A DNA stretch of 64,000 bases from Microcoleus sp. FACHB-831 (GTDB lineage Bacteria > Cyanobacteriota > Cyanobacteriia > Cyanobacteriales > FACHB-T130). Positions 31,998 through 47,998 of this stretch are shown here, one piece after another. Within the stretch, counting starts at the first letter, position 1. Each line of letters begins with the position of its first letter. Location: NCBI RefSeq assembly GCF_014695585.1, contig NZ_JACJON010000061.1, positions 124,001 to 188,000 of the forward strand, read 5' to 3'. The position numbers were made by a program, and so were the translations under genes. The notes under the pieces were generated by a model. The model saw only the letters and a list, made by a program, of their open reading frames with translations, was not told the origin of the DNA and searched no databases.

Positions 31998-32930
31998 ATG
32001 GAAGATTTTGGCGTCATCGTGATCTGTTGTGACCAAGACTACTTCATGGCTAAGGGTGTCTGCGCTAGTATCAGGCACTTCTTGGGTGATGTACCTATTT
32101 GCCTGCTGGTTGATGGAACTTTTTCAGTAGCTGATGCCCAAAAGGCTTATGGAGCCAAAGTCATCAATCGCATGAACATGACCCATGATGTTCTGAAACA
32201 AAGAAGCTTTGGCTGGGGAACTACCAGAATGATTGCATTTTGGGAAAGTCCTTTTAAACATTTCTTGCTTGTTGATGCAGATGTCATAATTTGGGGAAAT
32301 ATCCTCAAATATGCAAATTTCAAAGATTACGATGTTATCATCGATCGCCCTTGTTCTGACTATTCCCGAGAAGCGGTTCAAGAATATTTCTTTGATATAC
32401 CCGTATTTGAAGCGAATTTTCCTGGGTTTAACTGGCAAAATAGGCCTTTTGTCTGTCCTGCTGTATTATTTGGCACGAGGGATATTTTTACCTTAGAAGA
32501 GTATATTGAAATACTGGATTTCAAGGATAAACATCCCAACGTATTTAAGTATGGAGACATGGGGTTCTTAAACTACATGATATTCCGCGCAGCCGATCAA
32601 GGTAGGCTACGTTTAGGACAAGAAGACATACAGTTCCTAGTGCCAGATTTTCCCCAAGAACACGCCAAAAAGCGCTTTCCAATGAACGAAACGGGGCCAG
32701 TTGTCGTAGACGACGAAGCTAACGTAGTTCACTGGTGCGGACCCAAACCAACTCTGTCAAGTTCCAACCCTTACTCCGAACCGATGAATTTCTTTCGGCG
32801 GAAATTTCTCCGAGATGCATCAGGAACAACGGGATTGGCCGCGGAGGCTTTGCTGCAAGTAGAAGATTTGCAGCGAAATATATATGTTTACAAGAAAAAG
32901 ATCCGCAAAAAACTAACAGGAAAGTATTAA
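31998..32930 (+). CDS. GT-A glycosyltransferase-like protein, copy 1
   Basis: 310 residues. The start FGVIVICCDQDYFMAKGVCASIRHFL and the metal-binding-type LLVDADVIIWGN (DxD) indicate a GT-A transferase of the GT8 kind; NVVHWCGPKPT later resembles the GT8 histidine motif. It is one of a tandem pair with the gene at 33373. The last 75 residues of the two proteins are almost identical while the first halves are more diverged, which suggests gene conversion or repeated exchange at the 3' end. The stop is one base from a galE remnant, mirroring the intact pair downstream. Confidence 0.75.
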   Translation: MEDFGVIVICCDQDYFMAKGVCASIRHFLGDVPICLLVDGTFSVADAQKAYGAKVINRMNMTHDVLKQRSFGWGTTRMIAFWESPFKHFLLVDADVIIWGNILKYANFKDYDVIIDRPCSDYSREAVQEYFFDIPVFEANFPGFNWQNRPFVCPAVLFGTRDIFTLEEYIEILDFKDKHPNVFKYGDMGFLNYMIFRAADQGRLRLGQEDIQFLVPDFPQEHAKKRFPMNETGPVVVDDEANVVHWCGPKPTLSSSNPYSEPMNFFRRKFLRDASGTTGLAAEALLQVEDLQRNIYVYKKKIRKKLTGKY

Positions 32931-33324: not shown

Positions 33325-33361
33325 CTAATATCAAGAGCGTAAACTACGCTCTTGATATTAG
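33325..33361 (+). repeat. Strong 17-bp hairpin at a ribosome binding site
   Basis: Arms of 17 bases (CTAATATCAAGAGCGTA and complement) around the loop AAC. It ends on the first base of the AG-rich ribosome site (33361-33368) of the transferase at 33373. It could act as a translation or RNA-stability element, or be the scar of the duplication. Confidence 0.75.
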
Positions 33362-33372
33362 AGAGAGGTCTT

Positions 33373-34311
33373 ATGGAAGACTTTGGCGTTATCGTAGTAT
33401 GTTGTGACCAGGATTATGTTTTTGCTAAGGGAGCCTGCGCTAGCATCAGGCATTTCCTGGGTGATGTACCGATTTGTCTGATTGTTGATGGAACCTTTTC
33501 ACTCAGTAACCTAGAAAAAGCTTATAGTGTTACTGTAATCAATCATCTTAACGTTAGTAATGGAGTTCTAAGGGAAAAAAGTTTTGGATGGGGAAAGACC
33601 AAGATGCTCGCATTTTGGGAAAGTCCGTGGAAGAACTTTCTAGTCTTGGATGCGGATACAGTTATTTGGGGAAATATTCGGAAGTTTGCCAATTTTCAGG
33701 ATTACGACTTCATTATCGATCGACCCTGTAATGAGTATTCTGACGAAGCTATTACTGAGTATTTCTTTGATCTTGAGAAAATAGAGCAGTATTTTCCGGA
33801 ATTTAACTGGCAAAAGCATCGAAATAATTATTTTTGTACGGGCACTTTCTTCGGCACGAAGGGTATTTTTACCTTAGAAGAGTATGTTGAAATACTGGAT
33901 TTCAACAAGGCACACCCCAATGTATTTAAGTATGGAGAAATGGGGTTCTTAAACTACATGATATTCCGCGCAGCGGATCAAGGCAGGCTGCGCTTGGGGC
34001 AAGAAGATATGCAGTTCATAGTGCCAGATTTTCCCTCAGAACACGCTAAAAAACGTTTCCCCATGGAGGAAACAGGGCCAGTTGTCCTAAAGGACGAGGC
34101 TAACGTAGTTCACTGGTGCGGGCCGAAACCAACTTTGTCAAGTTCCAACCCTTACTCCGAACCGATGAATTTCTTTCGGCGGAAGTTTCTCCGAGATGCG
34201 TCAGGAACAAGCGGATTGGCCGCGGAGGCTTTGCTGCAAGTAGAAGATTTGCAGCGAAATGTATATGTTTATAAGAACAAGATTCGCAAAAAACTAACAG
34301 GAAAGTATTAA
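33373..34311 (+). CDS. GT-A glycosyltransferase-like protein, copy 2
   Basis: 312 residues from the ATG at 33373, preceded by GAGAGAGG at good spacing (an upstream in-frame TTG at 33352 would lie inside the hairpin). Same architecture as copy 1: FGVIVVCCDQDYVFAKGACASIRHFL, the DxD-type LVLDADTVIWGN, and an almost identical C-terminus. The middle differs more, with EKIEQYFPEFNWQKHRNNYFCTG in place of the equivalent segment of copy 1, which may change the sugar accepted. It is followed by intact galE with one base between. Confidence 0.75.
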   Translation: MEDFGVIVVCCDQDYVFAKGACASIRHFLGDVPICLIVDGTFSLSNLEKAYSVTVINHLNVSNGVLREKSFGWGKTKMLAFWESPWKNFLVLDADTVIWGNIRKFANFQDYDFIIDRPCNEYSDEAITEYFFDLEKIEQYFPEFNWQKHRNNYFCTGTFFGTKGIFTLEEYVEILDFNKAHPNVFKYGEMGFLNYMIFRAADQGRLRLGQEDMQFIVPDFPSEHAKKRFPMEETGPVVLKDEANVVHWCGPKPTLSSSNPYSEPMNFFRRKFLRDASGTSGLAAEALLQVEDLQRNVYVYKNKIRKKLTGKY

Positions 34312-35583: not shown

Positions 35584-36843
35584 TCATGGGGAACTTGAAT
35601 TTATAGACAAGCTTTTAAAAACAGACAAGTAGCGATTTGCCTGGAGTTCCAGGGTAAATTCTTGTTCTGCTTTCTGACGAGAGCGATCGCGCAGTTTTTG
35701 ATGTCGTTCCGGATTTTCTAGCACCCAGGCAATTCCCGCCGCTAAGTCTTCAATTTTATAAGCTTGAGCAAGATATCCACTTTGCTGATGCTCAACTATA
35801 TCTTTTAATCCTGTGGCATTAAAAGCTACAACTGGCGTACCGCAAGCTAATGCCTCGGAGGCTGTCTGTCCGAAAGCTTCCTGGGTTGATGGCACTACCA
35901 TAACATCGGCGGCTGAATAGACTACGGCTAGAGAAATATCGTCGGTAAATCTGCCTAGATAGTGGGATTTAAAACCCGTATCGATGGGATTTTCTGGCCT
36001 AGATGAACCAAAAACAACGAGTTCGAGTTTATCCCCCCATCCCGACTGGCTGAGGCTTTGCAAGGCTGGCTGAAGTAGCTGAAGTCCTTTGCGGGGAGCG
36101 TTGGTATATATTGCTCCAAACAGGACAAGTTGCTTATCTTGAGGTAAGTTAAGGAGCGATCGCGCCACTTCTTTTGGAATTGGCCTGTATTTTTGAATAT
36201 CCATGCCATGAGGAATTACCTCGATGGGCACATCTTTGAATAAAGAACTAGCTTTGGCACATTCAGCCAACCACTGACTGGGAGAAACAAGGGCTAGCTT
36301 AATATTTTTCCAGCTTTTAGCTTTGCGCTGCCATACCCAGCGCGATAAGTCGTTTTCTTTGCTGGTATGTAGTATAGGACAAGCACCGCACGAATCAGTA
36401 TATTTCGTACAATCTGCCGCATAGTTACACCCCCCAGTGAACGGCCACATATCGTGTAAAGTCCAGACCAAGGGTTTATTTAATTTAGCGATAGTTTCAA
36501 TTTGTAGAAACCCTTTGCAAATCCAGTGGATATTTATAACATCTGGCTGGCATTTCGCCACTCGGTCGGCGATTGCATCAGGAACCCACTCTATAGAAAA
36601 ATCAGTGCGATCGCGCTGGCGATAAAACTTCGCTGGCACTTCATCTAAATATTCAGTTAGTTTTAACTTACCAACCAGTTTATCTACACTTTTCTGTGAA
36701 GCCAAGACAGTTTTATCGTCACTCTCCTTAAATTGCACCAGCATCTGGGAATCTATACCGATTCCCTGTAAGCCATTATGCAATCGATAAGCTGCACGGC
36801 CCGCCCCTCCAGTATCAGAATTACTCAGATGCAAAACCTTCAC
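35584..36843 (-). CDS. Glycosyltransferase family 4
   Basis: 419-residue GT-B transferase. The N-terminal HLSNSDTGGAGRAAYRLHNGL start is typical of GT4 enzymes in capsule clusters, and the mid-protein GGCNYAADCTKYTDSCGACP segment is a cysteine-rich patch also seen in that subgroup. C-terminal FGAIYTNAPRKGLQLL, then VPSTQEAFGQTASEALACGTPVVAF with the E-x7-E pair. Starts with GTG. It heads no obvious operon but is the last gene of the minus-strand group running down from 44.4 kb, 17 bases after the nitroreductase gene. Confidence 0.9.
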   Translation of the reverse strand: MKVLHLSNSDTGGAGRAAYRLHNGLQGIGIDSQMLVQFKESDDKTVLASQKSVDKLVGKLKLTEYLDEVPAKFYRQRDRTDFSIEWVPDAIADRVAKCQPDVINIHWICKGFLQIETIAKLNKPLVWTLHDMWPFTGGCNYAADCTKYTDSCGACPILHTSKENDLSRWVWQRKAKSWKNIKLALVSPSQWLAECAKASSLFKDVPIEVIPHGMDIQKYRPIPKEVARSLLNLPQDKQLVLFGAIYTNAPRKGLQLLQPALQSLSQSGWGDKLELVVFGSSRPENPIDTGFKSHYLGRFTDDISLAVVYSAADVMVVPSTQEAFGQTASEALACGTPVVAFNATGLKDIVEHQQSGYLAQAYKIEDLAAGIAWVLENPERHQKLRDRSRQKAEQEFTLELQANRYLSVFKSLSINSSSP

Positions 36844-36860: not shown

Positions 36861-37874
36861 TCAGTTTACAGTCAATACTTCTTCAATTTTTCTTCTTGAA
36901 GACCGCGCCACATTCAAAGAGTCAGGCAAATTACCAACGGCTATCATCATTATAATTGCCTCAGATTCTCCAATCCCGGCATCGACTCTCACGGCTTGGT
37001 CTCTTTCGTAAGTTGCAGACCAGTTCAGGCAGCACGTACCTACACCCAGGGAATGTAAGGCATAAATTAGAGACATGGCAAACATACCCCCATCAACCCA
37101 ACATTGATTGCGTTCCGCAGGCTCAATAAATAAATTCAGGTCCGTAGTAACTACTAATACCTTACTAGCAGTATCTCCAAAGCCGCGATTGCCATTTTGA
37201 TGGCTCAAAACTTTTCTTTTTATATCATCATCACTAAAAAGATGTAGCTTCCATGTTTGCCGATTACAAACTGAAGGAGTTTTCAGCGCTATAGATACTG
37301 CCTCCTCAATCAATCTGACATCCACATCGTTGTTAGTATCGAAATTCCTAATGCTATGTCTGGCGTTGACAAATTCTTTGAAATTTACATTAGCTGCCTC
37401 TTTTATTTGTTCTTTTGTAACTTTAATTACGCCTCCATCTGTTACAATATTCACTTCCTTGGGAATTTTATTTTTTATTTCAGTTATATTTTTATATAAC
37501 TCTTGATTATCTAAACCCTGACTTAGATTGTAATTGTAATAAGAGAACAAAGTGTTCAGCGCAACTTGCCCAGCTTCATCCAAACCATACTTCTCTTGAT
37601 ATTCTGTGAGCAGACGCACTAAATAATTAACTACATCTACACCAAAGCCTACTCTAGGACTTTTCAAAGACAAGCCTTTTTCAATGACGTGATAAGTTGC
37701 CAGAATCCGTCCTTGATGTCTAATCTTTGACTGATAGGGGTCATAGGTTGATGAAAATTTTAGGTATCTTTTGAAATCATAGTAGTAATTTTTAGCCAGT
37801 TTCAGGGCAAAGCGTATCTTGTAAAACGTTTTTTTGGCAGATTCTGGTACTAGGCGCTTGATTATACTTTTCAT
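36861..37874 (-). CDS. Nitroreductase family protein with N-terminal extension
   Basis: 337 residues. The C-terminal half (about 165-330) is a nitroreductase/FMN fold: ARHSIRNFD (FMN phosphate contact), ALKTPSVCNRQTWKLHLF, and later CWVDGGMFAMSLIYALHSLGVGTCCLNW. The first 150 residues are an extension without clear domain, basic at the start. Nitroreductases with this extension tend to sit next to polysaccharide pyruvyl transferases in surface polymer clusters, as here. The substrate is unknown; a flavin-dependent redox modification in polymer synthesis is inference. Strong AGGAG ribosome site. Confidence 0.85.
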   Translation of the reverse strand: MKSIIKRLVPESAKKTFYKIRFALKLAKNYYYDFKRYLKFSSTYDPYQSKIRHQGRILATYHVIEKGLSLKSPRVGFGVDVVNYLVRLLTEYQEKYGLDEAGQVALNTLFSYYNYNLSQGLDNQELYKNITEIKNKIPKEVNIVTDGGVIKVTKEQIKEAANVNFKEFVNARHSIRNFDTNNDVDVRLIEEAVSIALKTPSVCNRQTWKLHLFSDDDIKRKVLSHQNGNRGFGDTASKVLVVTTDLNLFIEPAERNQCWVDGGMFAMSLIYALHSLGVGTCCLNWSATYERDQAVRVDAGIGESEAIIMMIAVGNLPDSLNVARSSRRKIEEVLTVN

Positions 37875-37912
37875 CTTTTTTCTCCTACATCTATTTTTTC
37901 AGTCACTTATAT

Positions 37913-38986
37913 TTACTTTTGGCTAGACAGAGCTTTATAGAGATAGTCTTTAGAAGCTTCTATCTTCTCTTGCAGCTTTGTATAGTCCAAATTGAGGTTG
38001 GTATTTAATTTTTTATCAAGTTTGGGAAGCATATCTGCTGTTACTATTCGCTCCGGTATTCCCAACTCGGTTAATAAATCGACCACCTTGATCGATTTAT
38101 CGCTTCTACTAAAAACCGTAAAAGGTTTTTTATAAATAATTGAGAATATAGAGCCGTGGAAAAAGTTTGTAAAAACATATGATGCACCGTAAAAGTAGCC
38201 AAGCCATTCTCCTGGACCCGCTCCCACATAGTTTGCTTTTGGTGCATACTTCCAAGGTTCTCCAACCGAAATAATTTCTAAGCCTTCATTCGCGGCTACT
38301 GTTTTCACATAATTGCTTTCTTCTTTAGTTAGACCTCCATATACTAGAATATATTTTTTGTCTACTTTGGGAATTTTAATGATTTTGCTGTAATCGCCCA
38401 GTAAAGTTGGATCTAGAACTTTGGTAGCGTTTAGATTGCAGTGGCTAACAAGTTTTACGCTATTGCTATCTCTGACTGCGATCGCGTGAAATTGTTGCAG
38501 TAGCTGACATACTGCTTCTTTATAATTTCCTAAGCTATCTGTAGAGCCAAAACTAGCTGCATAGCTCACTTTGCGAGTATTGCTAGGTGAAATAAAATCA
38601 AAGAAATAAGATGGATCAAATCCTGTAAATGGCGATTGAATATTCCATATTTCATCACTTCCGCATATCACTACATCATATTGATGATTCCCGGTTTTTA
38701 ATTCTTCTCTATTTGTATATGTTTTTTCACTCAACTCCATTTGAGAAAGCAAAAACTCTCTCATCTTTTTAGCCCTTACAGCGTTCGCTATAAAATTTCT
38801 ATGAAATAATAATTTTCCACTAAAATAAAGATTTTTTCTAAACAACGCCATCAACTGAGTAGGACGATAATCAATAAATTCAACATCATATCCCTGCCCC
38901 TTAACTACTTGAGACAAAGCATAAGCTTGGAGCGTGGCACCAAAGTTAGTTGTACAGTGATAAGTTAGTATTCCTACCTTCGTCAT
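37913..38986 (-). CDS. Polysaccharide pyruvyl transferase family protein (WcaK/CsaB-like)
   Basis: 357 residues. The start VGILTYHCTTNFGATLQAYAL, the DVVICGSDEIWN block, SYAASFG, and the later YVFTNFFHGSIFSIIYKKPF (with the HG of the family) identify the pyruvyl-transferase superfamily. These enzymes move pyruvate from PEP to a sugar as a ketal, giving a negative charge. Same strand as, and 38 bases before, the nitroreductase gene. The enzyme is cytosolic and would act on lipid-linked or nucleotide-linked sugars of the locus. Confidence 0.92.
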   Translation of the reverse strand: MTKVGILTYHCTTNFGATLQAYALSQVVKGQGYDVEFIDYRPTQLMALFRKNLYFSGKLLFHRNFIANAVRAKKMREFLLSQMELSEKTYTNREELKTGNHQYDVVICGSDEIWNIQSPFTGFDPSYFFDFISPSNTRKVSYAASFGSTDSLGNYKEAVCQLLQQFHAIAVRDSNSVKLVSHCNLNATKVLDPTLLGDYSKIIKIPKVDKKYILVYGGLTKEESNYVKTVAANEGLEIISVGEPWKYAPKANYVGAGPGEWLGYFYGASYVFTNFFHGSIFSIIYKKPFTVFSRSDKSIKVVDLLTELGIPERIVTADMLPKLDKKLNTNLNLDYTKLQEKIEASKDYLYKALSSQK

Positions 38987-39166
38987 TTTATTTGCCTATT
39001 TTCGCCTAATGTAAGAGTTGTAGAATCTTGTTGAGTTGCTGTAACCTTTATTTAGAGCAAGGCTACATTTGCCTTTGTTCGCCTTTTTATCTTTCCAAGA
39101 TAAGTTAAGAGTGGCCAAATCACGTCAAGCGGTCACTCTAGGTAGCGATTTTGCATCAATTTACTG

Positions 39167-40090
39167 CTAAGATTTTTTTACTATCCTCTTAACAGCTTGA
39201 GCCATACGCATTAGTTTTGGCCGATACCACAAATACTGCAACAAATCAGTCTTCAGCTTTGCACCCAGCGAATATTTTTTTTGTGCAGAAGGAACCAACC
39301 GATACTTCATCCCATTATATGTAGCATAATCTACAGCGCTAGGAGTTGTTGCATATCGGCTACCACTTTGATAGTTGCTAGGCAAATAATGCGCTGTCAG
39401 AGACTTTCTAGAATATTGAGTATTTTTGGTTGGCAAAGAACCATGAATTGTCCTCGAATTCCAGAACAACACATCTCCTTTTTGCAGCGCAGGCGCACTT
39501 ATTTGGCTTAGATGAGAATCTAAATATCCCTTCACCTTTTTTAGGTAAGGGCCATTGGAAGCTTTTTCATCTTCCGTCAATTCCATATCAAGCATATTAG
39601 ACTTGGGCAAAACGTAAAACCGTCCTGCTTCTTCTTGGATATCTTCTAGTGCAAACCATCCTGCCAACAAATGGCCTGGTGGCATTGAATCTAGGTAGTA
39701 CCAATCCTGATGAGCTGGTGTAGCCGTATTCATATCGAAAAGCATCGACTGTACAAGATTATGTTCTTCATATCCTGTAATTTCTGCCAGTGCTTTCTTC
39801 ACTTCTGGGCTGCAAAAAATGTTTTTCGCTGCATCGCAAAAGGCTGGATAATTGGGGTAATCGTGAACGTTTAGGAATGATTCTTCAGCATAGCCATGAT
39901 TAGAAATTTTGTGGCTTTCCCATTTATTGCTTGATTGTCTAAAAAAAGGGGCTTTTGAAGGTAATATATTAGTTTTATATTCCTCTAATAGCTTGTCAAT
40001 CAAGTAACCGGGTATGAGCTTGCGGAATATATAGTATCCGTTTTCGTCATAGTATTGCTTAGAATTGTTCACGTTCGCCAAAACCTCCAT
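39167..40090 (-). CDS. Phytanoyl-CoA dioxygenase (PhyH) family protein
   Basis: 307 residues with a double-stranded beta-helix of Fe(II)/2-oxoglutarate oxygenases. The iron ligands are H127-x-D129 (AHQDWYYLD) and distal H216 (RTIHGS), followed by a SRKSLTAHY stretch carrying a candidate 2-oxoglutarate-binding Arg. Iron and cosubstrate sites are intact, so activity is likely. In a polysaccharide locus the substrate could be a sugar, a lipid or an attached amino acid; this is not determined. It lies between a family 2 transferase and the pyruvyl transferase on the same strand, with 180 bases after it. Confidence 0.9.
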   Translation of the reverse strand: MEVLANVNNSKQYYDENGYYIFRKLIPGYLIDKLLEEYKTNILPSKAPFFRQSSNKWESHKISNHGYAEESFLNVHDYPNYPAFCDAAKNIFCSPEVKKALAEITGYEEHNLVQSMLFDMNTATPAHQDWYYLDSMPPGHLLAGWFALEDIQEEAGRFYVLPKSNMLDMELTEDEKASNGPYLKKVKGYLDSHLSQISAPALQKGDVLFWNSRTIHGSLPTKNTQYSRKSLTAHYLPSNYQSGSRYATTPSAVDYATYNGMKYRLVPSAQKKYSLGAKLKTDLLQYLWYRPKLMRMAQAVKRIVKKS

Positions 40091-40396: not shown

Positions 40397-41344
40397 TTAA
40401 TCTCTCACGGTCGTAAGTTGGTCGGTTAGCCTAGCCACTTTGTTCTTTATTCTAACGATTAGGTTGCGGCTGGGCATAATTTTTTTGAATAGCGCTTTTT
40501 CAAAATCTCGATCTACGACTGTAAACTCGTTAAATTTGATAGGAAATTTAAAAGGGGACTTATCAATATCTGGGAAGCCTAAATTATTTGATTTCGTATG
40601 TGTTGCATCCTTATGCCCAAAGCCTTTATTTACAACTAAATTTACCGAGGGAATAACAGTTAACCCGGACTGGCTCATTCTAGCAAAATACCATTGATAA
40701 TCCCAGACTGTAGGTCTTTGTTTCTGATAGACACTTTCAAATATTTCCTCTCTTTTTTTGTATTGCTCATCATCAGCCATTACATCTCTAATCCTAGTTC
40801 TAACCTCTGGGTTTTCCCACATTTTGATATCATAATCAAAGTACTGCCATGCCCTTCTCCAAGAAGCCCATCCCCAAACGCTACCGTGATAAGAGAAGTG
40901 ATAACTCTGAATATTTGATTTCCATTCCCCCAACACATTAGTTCCACCAACTGCCATAACACGCTTATCATCTCGATATTTTTCTAGCATTTCATCGCAG
41001 AATCTAAAAAAATCTGGATGAGGCAAGCAGTCATCCTCAAAAATAATAGCTTCTTCTACATTCTCAAATACCCAAGTAATTCCTGTAGCAGGACGACGCC
41101 CGCAGCCTATGTTTATGTCTGAATAGTTCTTTAAAACTTCGCAGTCCCAATCAACACGTTCAATAATTGCCCGCGTCGCCGCGCACTTTGCGGCATCATC
41201 TGGTTTATCTGCACGGGGGCCATCGGCAACCACTAAAAGCTTAGGGGGCTTTGCCCGACGTATTGCCTCAAAGACCTTCTCAGTAGTATCGGGTCTGTTG
41301 AAAATGATTAAGGCTACAGGGGTTCTCAATTGCCAATCCGCCAT
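40397..41344 (-). CDS. Family 2-type glycosyltransferase
   Basis: 315 residues. VALIIFNRPDTTEKVFEAIR at the start and AIIFEDDCLPHPDFFRFCDEML (the EDD motif) fit a GT-A transferase family typical of cyanobacterial and proteobacterial capsule clusters. GSVWGWASWRRAWQYFDYD and SGLTVIPSVNLVVNKGFGHKDATHT are further conserved blocks of that family. Donor and acceptor unknown. No transmembrane segments. It sits between the Wzx flippase and the PhyH-type gene on the minus strand. Confidence 0.88.
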   Translation of the reverse strand: MADWQLRTPVALIIFNRPDTTEKVFEAIRRAKPPKLLVVADGPRADKPDDAAKCAATRAIIERVDWDCEVLKNYSDINIGCGRRPATGITWVFENVEEAIIFEDDCLPHPDFFRFCDEMLEKYRDDKRVMAVGGTNVLGEWKSNIQSYHFSYHGSVWGWASWRRAWQYFDYDIKMWENPEVRTRIRDVMADDEQYKKREEIFESVYQKQRPTVWDYQWYFARMSQSGLTVIPSVNLVVNKGFGHKDATHTKSNNLGFPDIDKSPFKFPIKFNEFTVVDRDFEKALFKKIMPSRNLIVRIKNKVARLTDQLTTVRD

Positions 41345-41558: not shown

Positions 41559-42905
41559 TTATAAACCCTTTAATTTTTTAATTAAAATTTTAAATACATC
41601 AATCATAAATAGGGCTTTAGTTTGTTGAATAAATATTTTCCTAGTTTTTGGATAAAATGCACCAGCACCATATGCAGCAAAGAATTGGGCAATAACAGTT
41701 GCAATGCCTGCCCCTAGTCCGCCATAACTAGGTATTAGCAATAAATTTAACACTACATTTATCAATGCGCCGATCGCTGTAGTTACAGCCGAAAACTTCA
41801 TAAATCCTTCTGTTATCAACCACGGAACTCTTGCCAAACCCAAAGATACAAACAAACCCGCCCAAACAAGAACTTCTAAAACTGGTGCGGCTTCAATATA
41901 CTTTTTGCCAGCTACTATCATAATTATTTGGCTGGAAAAAATAGTTATAGGTATGGCAACGGCGTAGGATAGCAACACCACTAAATTAAAAAGTGTCTGT
42001 ATTCTTTCGTAATATATTTTTTCTCCCGCTGCTTTAGCTTTCACAATTGATGGCGTAACGGAATTAACAATCGCTGTTGGGACAAAATACCACATCTCTG
42101 ATGGTTTAACTGCTGCTGCATAAAGTCCCACAGCTTCAGCGTTTTTCATCTGCTGCAACATGATCTGATCTATACGCATATAAATCATAATGACCATGCC
42201 TGATAAGATAAGAGGCCAGCTTTCCTTGACTAATGCTTTCCCACGTTCAACGCTGCCCGTCCACAATTTTATAGAGTTCCCGTTCTTTTGATAGACTAGG
42301 ACGAGCCCTATTGCAATCAAAACATTTTCAGCAAACATTGCCCAAGCAAAGGCAACGAGGGGAAATCGCATTTGAATAAAGGCGATTCTGACGATGCTGA
42401 TTACCAAAACTGCTGCTGTTCTAGCCCAAACGGTATATTTGGCTTGTACTTGGGATTGGAACCAGAAATCAACTGTTTCAAAAGATTGAAATATAGTTGC
42501 CGCTGCTACAATTGCTACCAACCAACGTGTAATGTCGCTATCAGGGCTTTTTATTAACGTAATTGCTACTATAGATAACACTAAGGTTAGTACAGCACCA
42601 ATTACCTTGAGGACGAAGGCAGTACCCAGTATTTCGTTCTTGACCGAGGGTGAGCGAGTGAGATCGCGCACCACAATGTTATCCAAACCCAATTTAGCAA
42701 TTGGGCCAAATAGTCCTGCCCAAGCCAGCGATACGTTGTAAAGTCCGAATTGATATGGTGCTAGATAATCAGCAACCAAACGCCCTACCAACAGACCTAT
42801 AAACAGGCGTAGAATTTGATCGCCAGACAGCCAGATTGTGTTACCAATAACCTTACGCAGACCAGGAGTAATTTTTTGACTGACCGCCGCGAGCTTGTCT
42901 AGCAT
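41559..42905 (-). CDS. Polysaccharide flippase (Wzx/MATE-like)
   Basis: 448 residues with about twelve hydrophobic helices and the N-terminal pattern NTIWLSGDQILRLFIGLLVGRLVADYLAPYQFGLYNVSLAWAGLF, characteristic of RfbX/Wzx polysaccharide transporters. It would flip undecaprenyl-linked repeat units from the cytosolic to the periplasmic face. The gene is followed downstream by the family 2 transferase and preceded by the polymerase, forming the Wzx/Wzy pair of the locus. Confidence 0.92.
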   Translation of the reverse strand: MLDKLAAVSQKITPGLRKVIGNTIWLSGDQILRLFIGLLVGRLVADYLAPYQFGLYNVSLAWAGLFGPIAKLGLDNIVVRDLTRSPSVKNEILGTAFVLKVIGAVLTLVLSIVAITLIKSPDSDITRWLVAIVAAATIFQSFETVDFWFQSQVQAKYTVWARTAAVLVISIVRIAFIQMRFPLVAFAWAMFAENVLIAIGLVLVYQKNGNSIKLWTGSVERGKALVKESWPLILSGMVIMIYMRIDQIMLQQMKNAEAVGLYAAAVKPSEMWYFVPTAIVNSVTPSIVKAKAAGEKIYYERIQTLFNLVVLLSYAVAIPITIFSSQIIMIVAGKKYIEAAPVLEVLVWAGLFVSLGLARVPWLITEGFMKFSAVTTAIGALINVVLNLLLIPSYGGLGAGIATVIAQFFAAYGAGAFYPKTRKIFIQQTKALFMIDVFKILIKKLKGL

Positions 42906-42998: not shown

Positions 42999-44429
42999 TT
43001 ACCCAGCTCTAGCGACCCCTCCCTCCTCGTAGTAAACAGGTTTTTGGAATCTGCTATGTTCGCTCAAGCTACTCACACTAGCGTCCATGTTCACTCGAGT
43101 TGTTATAATCACAAACCACATCCAATGACCAGTCATACCATGCAGCCCTGTTTCCGTAAGGTTCGTCATAACGATATACGTCAACAGCAAAAGTGGCAGT
43201 CCTGCTTCAGTTCCTTGACTACGACCCAAATACAAAACTCCCTTAGCAATGCTGCTAAAAAAGGAAAAGAGATATAATGCTAACCCCAACCACCCTAAGT
43301 CTAGAGCAAGATCTAAAAAGCCATTGTGAGCATGGGGCGGCACAAACTGGGTCTTTGCCACTATGATCGACCCACCCGGATCAAATTCTTTTCCTCGCCA
43401 GGGTTGCCAAAAGCCATTCATTCCAAACCCCAGCAACGGTTCGCTGTTAATCTTATCTATTACCAGTGGCCAAAAATCTGTACGTCCGGTAATCGTCATA
43501 TCCTTATTGAGAGTATCTACAACAATAAACTCCAAATTGTCTGTTATCAAAATACTCAAGCAAACGCTTACTATTATGAAAAGCAGTACAGAAACAAAAG
43601 CCCACTGTGGTTTCAATTTTTTTACAAAACCTAGGTAGCCCCACAAGCTGAACAATACTACCGTTAAAACTTTACTTGCTCCACTACCACCTTTATTTAG
43701 TGCATAAAATGCCAAAATAACTACAACTATAGACCAACGACGTTGTTTAGGATTATTAATGGCATTCAATAACCAAACTACTGCACTTAGAGCCATATAA
43801 AATGAAAACTGATTTTTATGGCCTAGTATACCCATCCAGCCTGCTGGGTGTACTCCAATAGAGGGTTGAAATGTAGCGTAATATATACTTAATACAACTG
43901 TAAACAACGTTAGCCATCGCAAAATTTTATATATTTGTTCCCAATAAAATTCTTTGCCAATATAAATAAAATAAAAGCTCCATATTAATACAACTATACT
44001 TGTTCTAAAAGTGTACCCTGGTGTTTGTGACCAAAAACCCGATAAACCCATTAATAAAAAGAAAGTACAAAAAAACGGATCTTGAGTAATAAGTACTGCA
44101 ATAACATTTAAAAAGTTTTTTAATGTATAGCGAAGTCTTGAAGATAAAAGAATCAGTCCAGCAATATAAAAAGCTAGCAGTCCAATAATAGTTGGAGGAG
44201 TGGTATCAAGGTTATATAAATTTATAGGATTTATCTTATTAAAAGGCATTATTGTCACTCCTGTTGCACCAGTTATCGGGAACATAAGTATGCCCAGATA
44301 AATTTTCTCGGAAATCGCAGCCCATTTAGGGCTGCGACCTAAGAAGTTAAATAACAACATAAAAATAATTATCCCAAGAGCTAGTATAAGGAGGATAATT
44401 AAAGGGCTGCTGACAAGTAATTCTTTCAT
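42999..44429 (-). CDS. O-antigen polymerase/ligase-like protein (Wzy-type)
   Basis: 476 residues with about ten transmembrane helices and a large loop containing the family motif FVPPHAHNGFLDLALDLGWLG (HNxxL...GxxG), as in Wzy/WaaL-fold proteins. It would polymerise flipped repeat units at the periplasmic face. The sequence cannot tell polymerase from ligase, but the adjacent flippase and the SLBB/BY-kinase genes favour a Wzy polymerase. First gene of this minus-strand run; about 1.2 kb of gene-free DNA follows before the acyltransferase. Confidence 0.85.
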   Translation of the reverse strand: MKELLVSSPLIILLILALGIIIFMLLFNFLGRSPKWAAISEKIYLGILMFPITGATGVTIMPFNKINPINLYNLDTTPPTIIGLLAFYIAGLILLSSRLRYTLKNFLNVIAVLITQDPFFCTFFLLMGLSGFWSQTPGYTFRTSIVVLIWSFYFIYIGKEFYWEQIYKILRWLTLFTVVLSIYYATFQPSIGVHPAGWMGILGHKNQFSFYMALSAVVWLLNAINNPKQRRWSIVVVILAFYALNKGGSGASKVLTVVLFSLWGYLGFVKKLKPQWAFVSVLLFIIVSVCLSILITDNLEFIVVDTLNKDMTITGRTDFWPLVIDKINSEPLLGFGMNGFWQPWRGKEFDPGGSIIVAKTQFVPPHAHNGFLDLALDLGWLGLALYLFSFFSSIAKGVLYLGRSQGTEAGLPLLLLTYIVMTNLTETGLHGMTGHWMWFVIITTRVNMDASVSSLSEHSRFQKPVYYEEGGVARAG

Positions 44430-45603: not shown

Positions 45604-47106
45604 ATGTTATTCAATAGCTCAACTTTCTTAGTTTTCGTTTTGCTTACCTTCTTGATTTATTACAATCCCAAATTGCGGACAATACAAGTTCCCATTTTGG
45701 TTGTTGCTAGTTTTATATTTTATGCTTGGAGTTCACCAGCGCTGCTGATTCTCCTAGTAATATCAATTCTTATCAATGCAGTGGTTAGCTTCAAGGTTGC
45801 TAATGCCTCCTATCGTGAAAAATTAGTATGGGCTTTAGGGGGAGTAGCAGTAAACTTATTGATCCTCAGCCTGTTTAAATATGGAGCTTTATTAACGAAT
45901 TTTTTCGTTGATACGTTCCAGGCTTCTAATAAACCTGAAGCAGGAATTGTATACTTACTTTTACATTTGCCTCTTCCAGTAGGTATCTCATTTTATACAT
46001 TTGAGGGCATTAGCCTTTTAGTTGATGTTCTTCGTCAACCAACTAAAGGAGCGGAAGATGCTTCTAGCACTCAAACATCTTATGTTGATGGAAACCTGAC
46101 TAACCACATAATAAATACTTCTTTTTTTGTTGCTTTCTTTCCTCATTTAATTGCAGGACCAATTTTAAAAGCTAAAAGCTTTTATCCCCAAATTGGGATC
46201 AAATACTTTAGGGATATTCCTTGGAATTTTGTTTTCCGAACTGTGGTAGTGGGATATTTTTTGAAAATGGTAATAGCCGATAATTTAAAAGATTACACCT
46301 ACTGGATTACCTATCCGTACTACCAAGGGTTGGGAACCGTTACAAATTTAGTATTGCTTTTCGGCTACTCTATGCAGATATTTGCCGATTTTGCAGGATA
46401 TTCTCTGATTGCTATAGGAGTTGCCGCTGCTTTTGGCTACCAACTACCAGACAACTTTAACTTTCCCTATATTTCTTGCTCTATTGCGGAATTTTGGAGA
46501 CGCTGGCACATATCATTATCAACTTGGTTGAGAGATTATCTATATTTCCCTTTAGGGGGGAATAGAAAGGGGAAAGCTAGAACATATATAAACCTAATGA
46601 TAGTTATGACCCTTGGCGGACTATGGCATGGAGCCGCTTGGAGCTATGCAGTATGGGGAATTTTTCATGGCGTTGGATTAGCAATAGAACGCTTTCTCGG
46701 CCTAGAAAAATCAAACGAGCAAACTTCTCCATCAATCCCTATCTGGAAGCAGTTCTTCTTTGATTTAATCAAGGTTATTTTTGTATTCTGCTTTGTCTCA
46801 CTAGGATGGCTTTTGTTTAAACTACCTAATTTTGGCGAAGCTATGGATTTTTTAGCTACTCTAGTTAGAAACGTTAAAGTAGCACCAGGACTGACTTACA
46901 TTGTTCCTGTATTGATTTTTTCTTTACCAGTAGTAGTTTATCACATACCTCATTTTCCAACGTTCCGGAACCGTCAAACAGAGGATTTGGCTAAACCAAA
47001 AAGTTTGCTATGGAGTGTTGGTAAAGATATAGCACTAGGTATCATGCTGGTACTCTTATTCCTGAATAGCGGTAGTTCTCAAGAATTTATTTACTTCCAA
47101 TTCTAG
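45604..47106 (+). CDS. MBOAT family O-acyltransferase (AlgI-like)
   Basis: 500 residues with about eleven membrane helices. The AlgI/MBOAT signature is clear: EFWRRWHISLSTWLRDYLYFPLGGNRKG and GGLWHGAAWSYAVWGIFHG with the catalytic His H342. Such proteins carry acyl (often acetyl) groups across the membrane and O-acylate polymers with a periplasmic SGNH partner. The next gene, four bases later, encodes such a partner candidate, so polymer acetylation is the likely job. Confidence 0.95.
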   Translation: MLFNSSTFLVFVLLTFLIYYNPKLRTIQVPILVVASFIFYAWSSPALLILLVISILINAVVSFKVANASYREKLVWALGGVAVNLLILSLFKYGALLTNFFVDTFQASNKPEAGIVYLLLHLPLPVGISFYTFEGISLLVDVLRQPTKGAEDASSTQTSYVDGNLTNHIINTSFFVAFFPHLIAGPILKAKSFYPQIGIKYFRDIPWNFVFRTVVVGYFLKMVIADNLKDYTYWITYPYYQGLGTVTNLVLLFGYSMQIFADFAGYSLIAIGVAAAFGYQLPDNFNFPYISCSIAEFWRRWHISLSTWLRDYLYFPLGGNRKGKARTYINLMIVMTLGGLWHGAAWSYAVWGIFHGVGLAIERFLGLEKSNEQTSPSIPIWKQFFFDLIKVIFVFCFVSLGWLLFKLPNFGEAMDFLATLVRNVKVAPGLTYIVPVLIFSLPVVVYHIPHFPTFRNRQTEDLAKPKSLLWSVGKDIALGIMLVLLFLNSGSSQEFIYFQF

Positions 47107-47110
47107 TTAT

Positions 47111-47998
47111 ATGCCTTCTAATTTATTCAAGTCTAAGTTTCGTCCTTTCTTTGTTCCGGTATTGACCTGCATATTTTTGCTAGGTTTGTATCAAGTTTCA
47201 ATTTGGGGTGGACTGCTACCACCTAGTAATGGAGTTACCCAATTTGAATCTAATGTAATTAAAGCTCAAAGGTACGTTTACCAGAACCAGCCAGATTCGA
47301 TGGTGCTAGTAGGCAGTTCACTCACCGATAACATTAAGCCTGAGGATATTGGTTCTAATGTAACCAACTTAGCAATGGCCGGAGGTGCTAGCCAAACTGG
47401 TTTGGAGGTAATTAAAAAGAAGCCTGTCAAGCCATCAACTTTGCTGGTTGAACTTAATTATACTATTGATAGAAAAGTAGATGCTAAATTGGTAGATTCT
47501 TTATACGATCCATTTTTCTACTTGACTCGTCTTGCTTTTCCAATGTTTAGAGATGAATACCGACCAGTCAGCGTTCTAGTTTATTATCTAAAAAATAGGT
47601 CTAAACAGCAGGACAAAGATAAAATAAATAATCCAGAGTTGACACAAAAAGAAATAGGACGGTTAGTAGAAGAAGGCAATAAGCCTTTATCGGATAAACG
47701 AGAGAAGGCAATAAGGTCGGAAGCTGAGTACATTAAGAATCAGCTTGCAGAACTTAAGCAGCAAGGTTGGCGAGTTGTTCTATTTGATGTACCAGGCGAA
47801 GAGCGCGTACAGAATACTAAGATGTACCAGCAGTCGCGATCGCTTATGCGATCGCTTTTCCCTAAAGATTCTTTTGAGTGGTTACCGGAACCCCCATCGA
47901 AAAACTGGACAACTTCAGATGGCGTTCACTTAGTTCGTTCAGATGTTGAAGAATATGCGTTGTTTTTACGAGAGCAGCTATTGAAAAAAAATTCTTGA
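47111..47998 (+). CDS. Membrane-anchored SGNH-like protein, partner of MBOAT
   Basis: 295 residues. An N-terminal membrane helix (about 10-30) anchors a periplasmic domain that resembles AlgJ/AlgX/DltD-type SGNH hydrolases: VLVGSSLTDNI has the GSS serine block, FDVP occurs mid-protein, and DGVHLVRSDV supplies the D-x2-H pair near the C-terminus. With the MBOAT gene just upstream it probably completes acyl transfer to the polysaccharide. Family assignment is by motif spacing, so the exact acyl acceptor is open. Confidence 0.75.
   Translation: MPSNLFKSKFRPFFVPVLTCIFLLGLYQVSIWGGLLPPSNGVTQFESNVIKAQRYVYQNQPDSMVLVGSSLTDNIKPEDIGSNVTNLAMAGGASQTGLEVIKKKPVKPSTLLVELNYTIDRKVDAKLVDSLYDPFFYLTRLAFPMFRDEYRPVSVLVYYLKNRSKQQDKDKINNPELTQKEIGRLVEEGNKPLSDKREKAIRSEAEYIKNQLAELKQQGWRVVLFDVPGEERVQNTKMYQQSRSLMRSLFPKDSFEWLPEPPSKNWTTSDGVHLVRSDVEEYALFLREQLLKKNS

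Follow-up and report, generated by a model that had tools for sequence, protein, structure and literature searches.

The 64,000-nucleotide stretch of the Microcoleus sp. FACHB-831 genome analysed here (the window; contig NZ_JACJON010000061.1, positions 124,001 to 188,000) carries a Wzx/Wzy-type polysaccharide operon that includes genes for a nitroreductase-fold flavoprotein (NTR), a polysaccharide pyruvyl transferase family protein (PSPT) and a PhyH-type Fe(II)/2-oxoglutarate oxygenase (PhyH) (Table 1). Sequence comparisons make it likely that NTR and PSPT work as a module of two steps that attaches a lactic-acid ether (1-carboxyethyl) to a single sugar in the repeat unit ahead of its export, and that PhyH is separate, with no part in the lactyl-ether chemistry. 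In the first step, a MurA-like reaction, PSPT would use phosphoenolpyruvate (PEP) to attach an enolpyruvyl group to a sugar hydroxyl and so form CH2=C(COOH)-O-sugar; in the second, NTR with bound flavin mononucleotide (FMN) would reduce the C=C bond to give CH3-CH(COOH)-O-sugar, a MurB-like reaction. In related loci the place of NTR is occupied by a flavoprotein of FrhB type or by a paralogue of MurB.

Family membership of the three proteins leaves little room for chance, as judged by their Pfam E-values. NTR matches PF00881 (6.4e-17, 62.7 bits against a gathering threshold of 23.5), with the best stretch starting at residue 171; PSPT matches PF04230 over 279 of 280 profile positions (1.8e-38, 133.5 bits against 25.3); and PhyH matches PF05721 (1.8e-20, 74.6 bits against 22). 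A reading made from the sequence only had described a flavin reductase-type protein with a 150-residue extension, and the N-terminal ~160 residues of NTR are indeed free of Pfam matches. In an AlphaFold model built from 5 sequences (mean predicted local distance difference test score, pLDDT, 77, lower over the first 50 residues), this extension is mostly helical. Foldseek searches with the model returned nitroreductase-fold flavoproteins as top matches (best E-value 1.6e-9), and the matches include FMN nitroreductases, iodotyrosine deiodinase and, at rank 50 of 456, the C-terminal domain of FbiB. On this predicted structure, NTR is assigned to the FMN-binding nitroreductase fold. Assignment to BluB (21.7 bits against an NCBIfam cut-off of 150), PRK11053 (19.3 against 227) or Rv3131 (23.5 against 199) was rejected, as was homology to MurB, the protein matching nitroreductase families only. 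Two motifs characterize the aligned NTRs: HxxEKG in the extension (H62, E65, K66 and G67 in the window) and PSxCNRQ in the core (P200-S201-x-C203-N204-R205-Q206). Their fixed letters occur in all 24 aligned proteins, except for K66, which is present in 22; the two exceptions are Rhizobium NTRs that have Tyr at this place, neither with a PSPT nearby, and the NTRs of two other loci (L017 and L022) keep the Lys though they too are without a nearby PSPT. With both motifs and a PSPT close by, the window protein fits the PSPT-linked NTR subfamily that we propose.

Judged by gene neighborhoods, the NTR-PSPT pair is a conserved module. Among 243 genomes of the order, NTR (E <= 1e-15) was found at 11 loci in 10 genomes, and at 10 of the 11 an open reading frame (ORF) with a PF04230 match lies within 1.4 kb; at the remaining one (G035), 131 bases separate the start of the locus from the end of a contig. 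Chance adjacency is unlikely, because the NTR-bearing genomes have only 2 to 5 PF04230 matches each. The same pairing recurs well away from this order. Five NTR loci were found in the genome_contigs set; one of these (L018) was left out of the counts as a 92-residue partial NTR, and two, both from metagenome-assembled genomes of Planctomycetota, have a PSPT 2.6 kb away (L014) or adjoining (L015). In a family of 392 genomes, taken as Enterobacteriaceae from a gnd match in G526, both NTR matches (G661 and G713) share a run of genes with a PSPT located by its PF04230 match; in G661 a flippase gene stands between the two, and the locus is of capsule type. Neither genome was recognized as Klebsiella K22 or K37. 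The Escherichia coli O146 cluster has NTR, wzx and PSPT in that order, and the O146-type NTR, found in 17 of 5426 E. coli genomes, is beside the O146 wzx in all 17, one of which was examined in detail. Plasmids of E. coli, Lactiplantibacillus and Pseudorhodobacter carry both genes; 39 plasmid records match NTR, and of six examined (including one of the 24 Rhizobium records) five have PSPT and one does not. Moreover, PSPT and NTR are fused in single ORFs of Gemmobacter fulvus (871 amino acids) and Paracoccus alcaliphilus (849 amino acids), each with both Pfam domains. Exceptions, with PSPT neither near nor fused, are the NTRs of L016, L017 and L041. Rerunning 21 loci with a PSPT profile cleaned of the fusion rows altered no count: PSPT was found in L014, L015, L123, L146, L147, L157 and L159-L162, and none in L016, L017, L022, L041 or L165-L171.

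Reductases other than NTR adjoin the same type of transferase. Seeding a search with the window PSPT (E <= 1e-25) yielded 13 loci, spread over 12 of the 243 genomes; three of these loci adjoin NTR and five adjoin a paralogue of MurB. The paralogue itself (E <= 1e-30) occurs in 5 of the 243 genomes, and PSPT is the next gene in all five, in one case cut by a contig end. Two of these MurB-like flavin adenine dinucleotide (FAD) proteins, encoded directly upstream of PSPTs from the window's own clade (see below), score 9.6e-34 and 1.6e-30 against the NCBIfam MurB models (117 and 106 bits, where the cut-off is 259), match Pfam FAD_binding_4 and retrieve only MurB structures from the PDB. GNGSN, YR and CGSVFK are retained in all five paralogues, the Ser of the last motif being, we take it, the proton donor of MurB. 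A full-scoring murB is also present in both paralogue genomes checked and in four other genomes examined. The window genome has one murB, located elsewhere, and no paralogue match at E <= 1e-30. In the E. coli O124/O164 clusters, the gene beside a PSPT of the window's clade encodes an FrhB-type flavoprotein, and a flippase gene is present as well. Two E. coli plasmids carry nearly identical PSPTs (99.4% over 337 amino acids), one with NTR as its neighbor and the other with FrhB, though these plasmids have been rearranged by insertion sequence (IS) elements. The MurB reaction turns an enolpyruvyl ether into a lactyl ether, and some FrhB-family proteins, such as BciB, reduce vinyl groups. Since three unrelated reductases adjoin one transferase type, one shared chemistry is suggested.

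Several of these loci have features of their own. On three small E. coli plasmids (L038, L079 and L080), modules of the flippase-NTR-PSPT and flippase-FrhB-PSPT kinds lie amid IS elements. Two of the plasmids (L038 and L079) have both kinds, with one of the two reductase genes truncated in each; the modules are possible mobile cassettes for modifying surface sugars. In the O146-type strain ATCC 8739 (L122), an IS1 separates two pieces annotated as glycosyltransferase. Within one cluster type, that of O124/O164 (L044 and L082 versus L081), strain WEC has an intact PSPT and strains TUM18780 and DETEC-C31 have the gene broken into two ORFs, which may underlie a difference between O124 and O164. 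In some Sinorhizobium meliloti megaplasmid records a single match lists both an FrhB-type and a PSPT gene, and one Klebsiella plasmid record also matches FrhB.

The PSPT tree (42 rows, made with a quick method, long branches flagged) places the window protein in a clade of 15 rows with a Shimodaira-Hasegawa-like approximate likelihood ratio (SH-aLRT) support of 99. In 14 of these rows a reductase gene is adjacent, one flippase gene away or fused: nine are NTR-linked or fused, three FrhB-linked (including E. coli O124/O164, and with one FrhB gene a fragment) and two MurB-like; the last (G035) shows no reductase. This share is biased, most rows having been collected through the reductase, and the unbiased share is the 8 of 13 from the PSPT-seeded search; likewise, the label "none" in the tree is for most rows based on a flank of ~1.5 kb. 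Both WcaK and the CsaB copies fall outside the clade. The window PSPT was rejected as a CsaB orthologue on this ground and on its score (TIGR03609, 21.7 bits against a cut-off of 213.1). A second PSPT in the window genome (G000:C45) passes that cut-off with 387.6 bits, as do all three CsaB copies of 346-368 amino acids tested in the tree; L096 fails it. Two further sequences stood out: a PSPT of the second NTR-linked clade described below, with an FrhB-type gene on its own strand at a distance of 3.2 kb (L126, G243:C365), and a 937-amino-acid ORF (L131:5003-7816, G232:C243) that contains a PF04230 stretch.

That bacterial surface polysaccharides can contain lactyl-ether sugars was recognized decades ago. 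Among cyanobacteria, the "nosturonic acid" of Nostoc is a lactyl ether of glucuronic acid, and Cyanospira capsulata also belongs to this phylum. The polymer of Cyanospira contains 4-O-[1-carboxyethyl]mannose (PMC8466920). A 4-O-[(R)-1-carboxyethyl]-D-glucose is reported from Shigella dysenteriae (PMC10609480). In NMR spectra, an ether-linked lactyl group gives signals near 1.4 ppm (CH3) and 78 ppm (C2) (PMC9912281). Klebsiella offers a fit between genes and structure. Among 78 cps loci there are two nitroreductases and one coenzyme-F420-hydrogenase gene, and four of the 46 types without pyruvate (K8, K22, K37 and K66) have pyruvyl-transferase genes (PMC4616057). The cps regions of K22 and K37 (AB819893 and AB819894) differ by a single frameshift, located in an acetyltransferase ORF, and are otherwise identical (PMC3857182), and a reference title in PMC7246685 names 4-O-[(S)-1-carboxyethyl]-D-glucuronic acid in the K22 capsule. 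We infer that the two nitroreductases lie in K22 and K37, which the pair fits well because the two cps regions are near-identical. The exopolysaccharide (EPS) of Bifidobacterium longum 35624 and the Cobetia capsule were dropped as further lactyl-ether cases, the carboxyethyl terms in those papers belonging to reference titles or to ketals. The literature searched, most subscription papers falling outside its scope, showed neither a link between a nitroreductase plus pyruvyl transferase and lactyl ethers nor any gene assignment for lactyl-ether sugars. We lean, with less assurance than for the window module, towards a wider proposal: that this branch of the PSPT family consists of enolpyruvyl ether synthases for which at least three unrelated flavoenzymes have been recruited, providing a general and interchangeable route to lactyl-ether sugars. 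This route would serve capsules, O-antigens and the slimes of cyanobacteria, among them those of Klebsiella K22/K37 and of E. coli O124 and O146, and perhaps those of Cyanospira and Nostoc.

The oxygenase behaves differently. When PhyH is aligned to human PhyH (2a1x), H127, D129 and H216 fall at what we take to be the iron-ligand places and R228 at the presumed 2-oxoglutarate-arginine place, in keeping with the complete set of metal ligands described in the sequence-only reading. That reading, which had also placed the three genes on one strand inside a Wzx/Wzy locus (as the ORF coordinates and Pfam matches bear out), saw in them an unusual redox modification of a sugar or substituent before export and asked whether the three families co-occur elsewhere. 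Outside the window genome, they do not: PhyH homologues (E <= 1e-20, a survey that does not extend to more distant PhyH-family proteins) occur in 19 of the 243 genomes, NTR at the threshold above is absent from the 18 others, and the two lists share the window genome only. None of seven PhyH loci compared has PSPT, NTR, FrhB or the MurB paralogue. Four of them, in G062, G011, G065 and G014 (loci L165, L166, L167 and L171), have a Wzy-Wzx-glycosyltransferase-like skeleton of the window type with PhyH and without PSPT or NTR; the other three are without such a skeleton. Conversely, G047 (L159, G047:C2:51000-66000) has the skeleton with PSPT and without PhyH or NTR. A homologue of the GT4 gene of the window lies downstream of PSPT in G047 and of PhyH in G065. 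Because such skeletons carry PhyH or PSPT alone, PhyH and the PSPT-NTR pair appear to decorate a common backbone operon independently of each other, and PhyH is probably an independent, optional decoration gene within it. The idea of redox modification is thus supported for the NTR-PSPT pair acting on a pyruvyl-type substituent and is not supported for PhyH as a third partner. That all three genes make up one pathway to an unusual oxidized or reduced substituent, as their adjacency and shared direction in the window could suggest, is very unlikely given the 19 and 10 genomes that overlap in one and the operons with PhyH or PSPT alone. A point in its favor comes from G084, where a distant PhyH-family protein (L125:3555-4535; PF05721, 3.6e-8) is encoded 1.7 kb upstream of a MurB-paralogue-PSPT pair. 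Some PhyH-type enzymes, then, share loci with PSPT.

The observations that weigh against a lactyl-ether module with PhyH apart from it belong together. G084 also has NTR, and its distant PhyH counts slightly against the separation. Two NTR loci of the genome_contigs set (L016 and L017) have no PSPT in the 16.9 kb examined, although the second, from Aliiroseovarius, lies beside genes that look polysaccharide-like by eye; the NTR of one Rhizobium leguminosarum plasmid sits among transport and catabolic genes without PSPT. From the transferase side, 5 of the 13 PSPT-seeded loci have no NTR, MurB paralogue or FrhB within ~7 kb on either side, as far as an FrhB profile built from a few E. coli sequences, which may miss distant FrhB proteins, can tell; these five may be ketal makers, may have a distant reductase or may be something else. 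The absence of NTR from the G047 skeleton implies that this PSPT type can exist without the reductase and may then make a ketal. The NTR-linked PSPTs are not one clade either: 11 of 13 rows of a second clade (support 95) are NTR-linked, so that, on the tree, the linkage was gained more than once or was lost. The MurB paralogues diverge from MurB at the C-terminus, where they have no match to the Pfam MurB C-terminal domain. Many nitroreductase folds besides FbiB match NTR, and at its rank the FbiB match is not specific. As for the structures, the K22/K37 fit depends on an indirect placement of the nitroreductases and leaves the pyruvyl-transferase genes of K8 and K66 unexplained; the lactyl-glucose of S. 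dysenteriae, that of type 3, is presumably shared by E. coli O124; and nothing usable on the O146 O-antigen structure turned up in the literature searched.

Characterized pyruvyl transferases such as CsaB and WcaK are ketal-forming. If PSPT likewise made an ordinary pyruvate ketal, NTR would do an unrelated redox job, such as keto-sugar or flavin reduction, and the five reductase-less loci and the G047 operon would fit readily; PMC6030368 names the pyruvate ketal of the CsaB-type polymer. We nevertheless consider this reading unlikely, in that it leaves unexplained the PSPT-NTR fusions, the MurB paralogue or FrhB in the place of NTR, and the pyruvate-free capsules with a pyruvyl-transferase gene. 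The G047 operon (L159) is a natural comparison for ketal versus lactyl ether. The same gene linkage, and the same lactyl ether, would also result if NTR acted first, on a small molecule, and PSPT transferred the resulting lactyl donor directly. To this order of events we give hardly any credence: the MurB paralogue as an alternative points to an enolpyruvyl ether as the substrate, and in the F420 pathway, according to PMC6450877, 2-phospholactate gives no product whereas PEP followed by reduction works. In the same paper FbiB supplies a precedent for the reduction that we prefer for NTR: with FMNH2, its C-terminal domain, which has a nitroreductase fold, reduces dehydro-F420-0, a compound derived from PEP.

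If this assignment is correct, unrelated families perform MurA/MurB-type chemistry for exported polysaccharides, with three unrelated reductases recruited to one step. PSPT annotations could then be separated into likely ketal makers and likely lactyl-ether makers by the presence of a neighboring reductase, and polymer structure could be predicted from sequence, for example ether-linked lactate in E. coli O146. It could also explain how many bacteria make lactyl-ether sugars.

Within the window, transcription would run from the Wzy gene through Wzx, the Pfam-less protein, PhyH, PSPT and NTR to the GT4 gene, all on the minus strand, with gaps of 38 bases between NTR and PSPT and 180 bases between PSPT and PhyH. 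The Pfam-less protein is conserved in the operon skeleton and has copies at 49-60% identity in five syntenic operons. Beyond the GT4 gene are two similar neighboring ORFs, at 31998-32930 (+) and 33352-34311 (+), with near-identical C-termini; the former has no Pfam match and the latter a sub-threshold match to Mannosyl_trans3. On the other side, 45604-47106 (+) looks by eye like an MBOAT-like membrane acyltransferase and is followed by an ORF without a Pfam match at 47111-47998 (+), an arrangement that, again by eye, resembles polysaccharide O-acetylation pairs.

Table 1. Genes of the Wzx/Wzy operon in the window
Product	Coordinates	Strand	Length (amino acids)	Pfam match
GT4 glycosyltransferase, next gene downstream of NTR	35584-36843	-		PF00534 (8.7e-26)
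NTR, nitroreductase-fold flavoprotein with N-terminal extension of ~160 residues	36861-37874	-	337	PF00881
PSPT, polysaccharide pyruvyl transferase family protein	37913-38986	-	357	PF04230
PhyH-type Fe(II)/2-oxoglutarate oxygenase	39167-40090	-	307	PF05721
Protein glycosyltransferase-like by eye	40397-41344	-		none
Wzx-type flippase	41559-42905	-		PF01943 (1.8e-25)
Wzy-type polymerase / O-antigen ligase family protein	42999-44429	-		PF04932 (4.2e-13)

The closest parallel to the proposed chemistry is MurA/MurB, in which an enolpyruvyl group from PEP is likewise transferred to a sugar hydroxyl and reduced by a flavoenzyme to a lactyl ether, and some relatives of the window locus carry a MurB paralogue beside PSPT. 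The window system differs from it in that the transferase is a PF04230 protein, the reductase has a nitroreductase fold and the module belongs to exported-polysaccharide operons. FbiB resembles the reductase half, with FMN-dependent reduction of a PEP-derived enolpyruvyl to a lactyl group by a nitroreductase fold; in PMC6450877, however, the substrate is an F420 phosphoester rather than a sugar ether, and the fusion partner is a glutamyl ligase. The ketal-forming WcaK and CsaB share PF04230 with the window PSPT, which nonetheless scores far under the CsaB cut-off and lies outside the clades of both. The E. coli O124/O164 and O146 clusters, for whose reductase and PSPT genes no function turned up in the literature searched, are alike in combining a flippase, a reductase and PSPT, O146 having an NTR, as the window locus does, and O124/O164 having FrhB instead.

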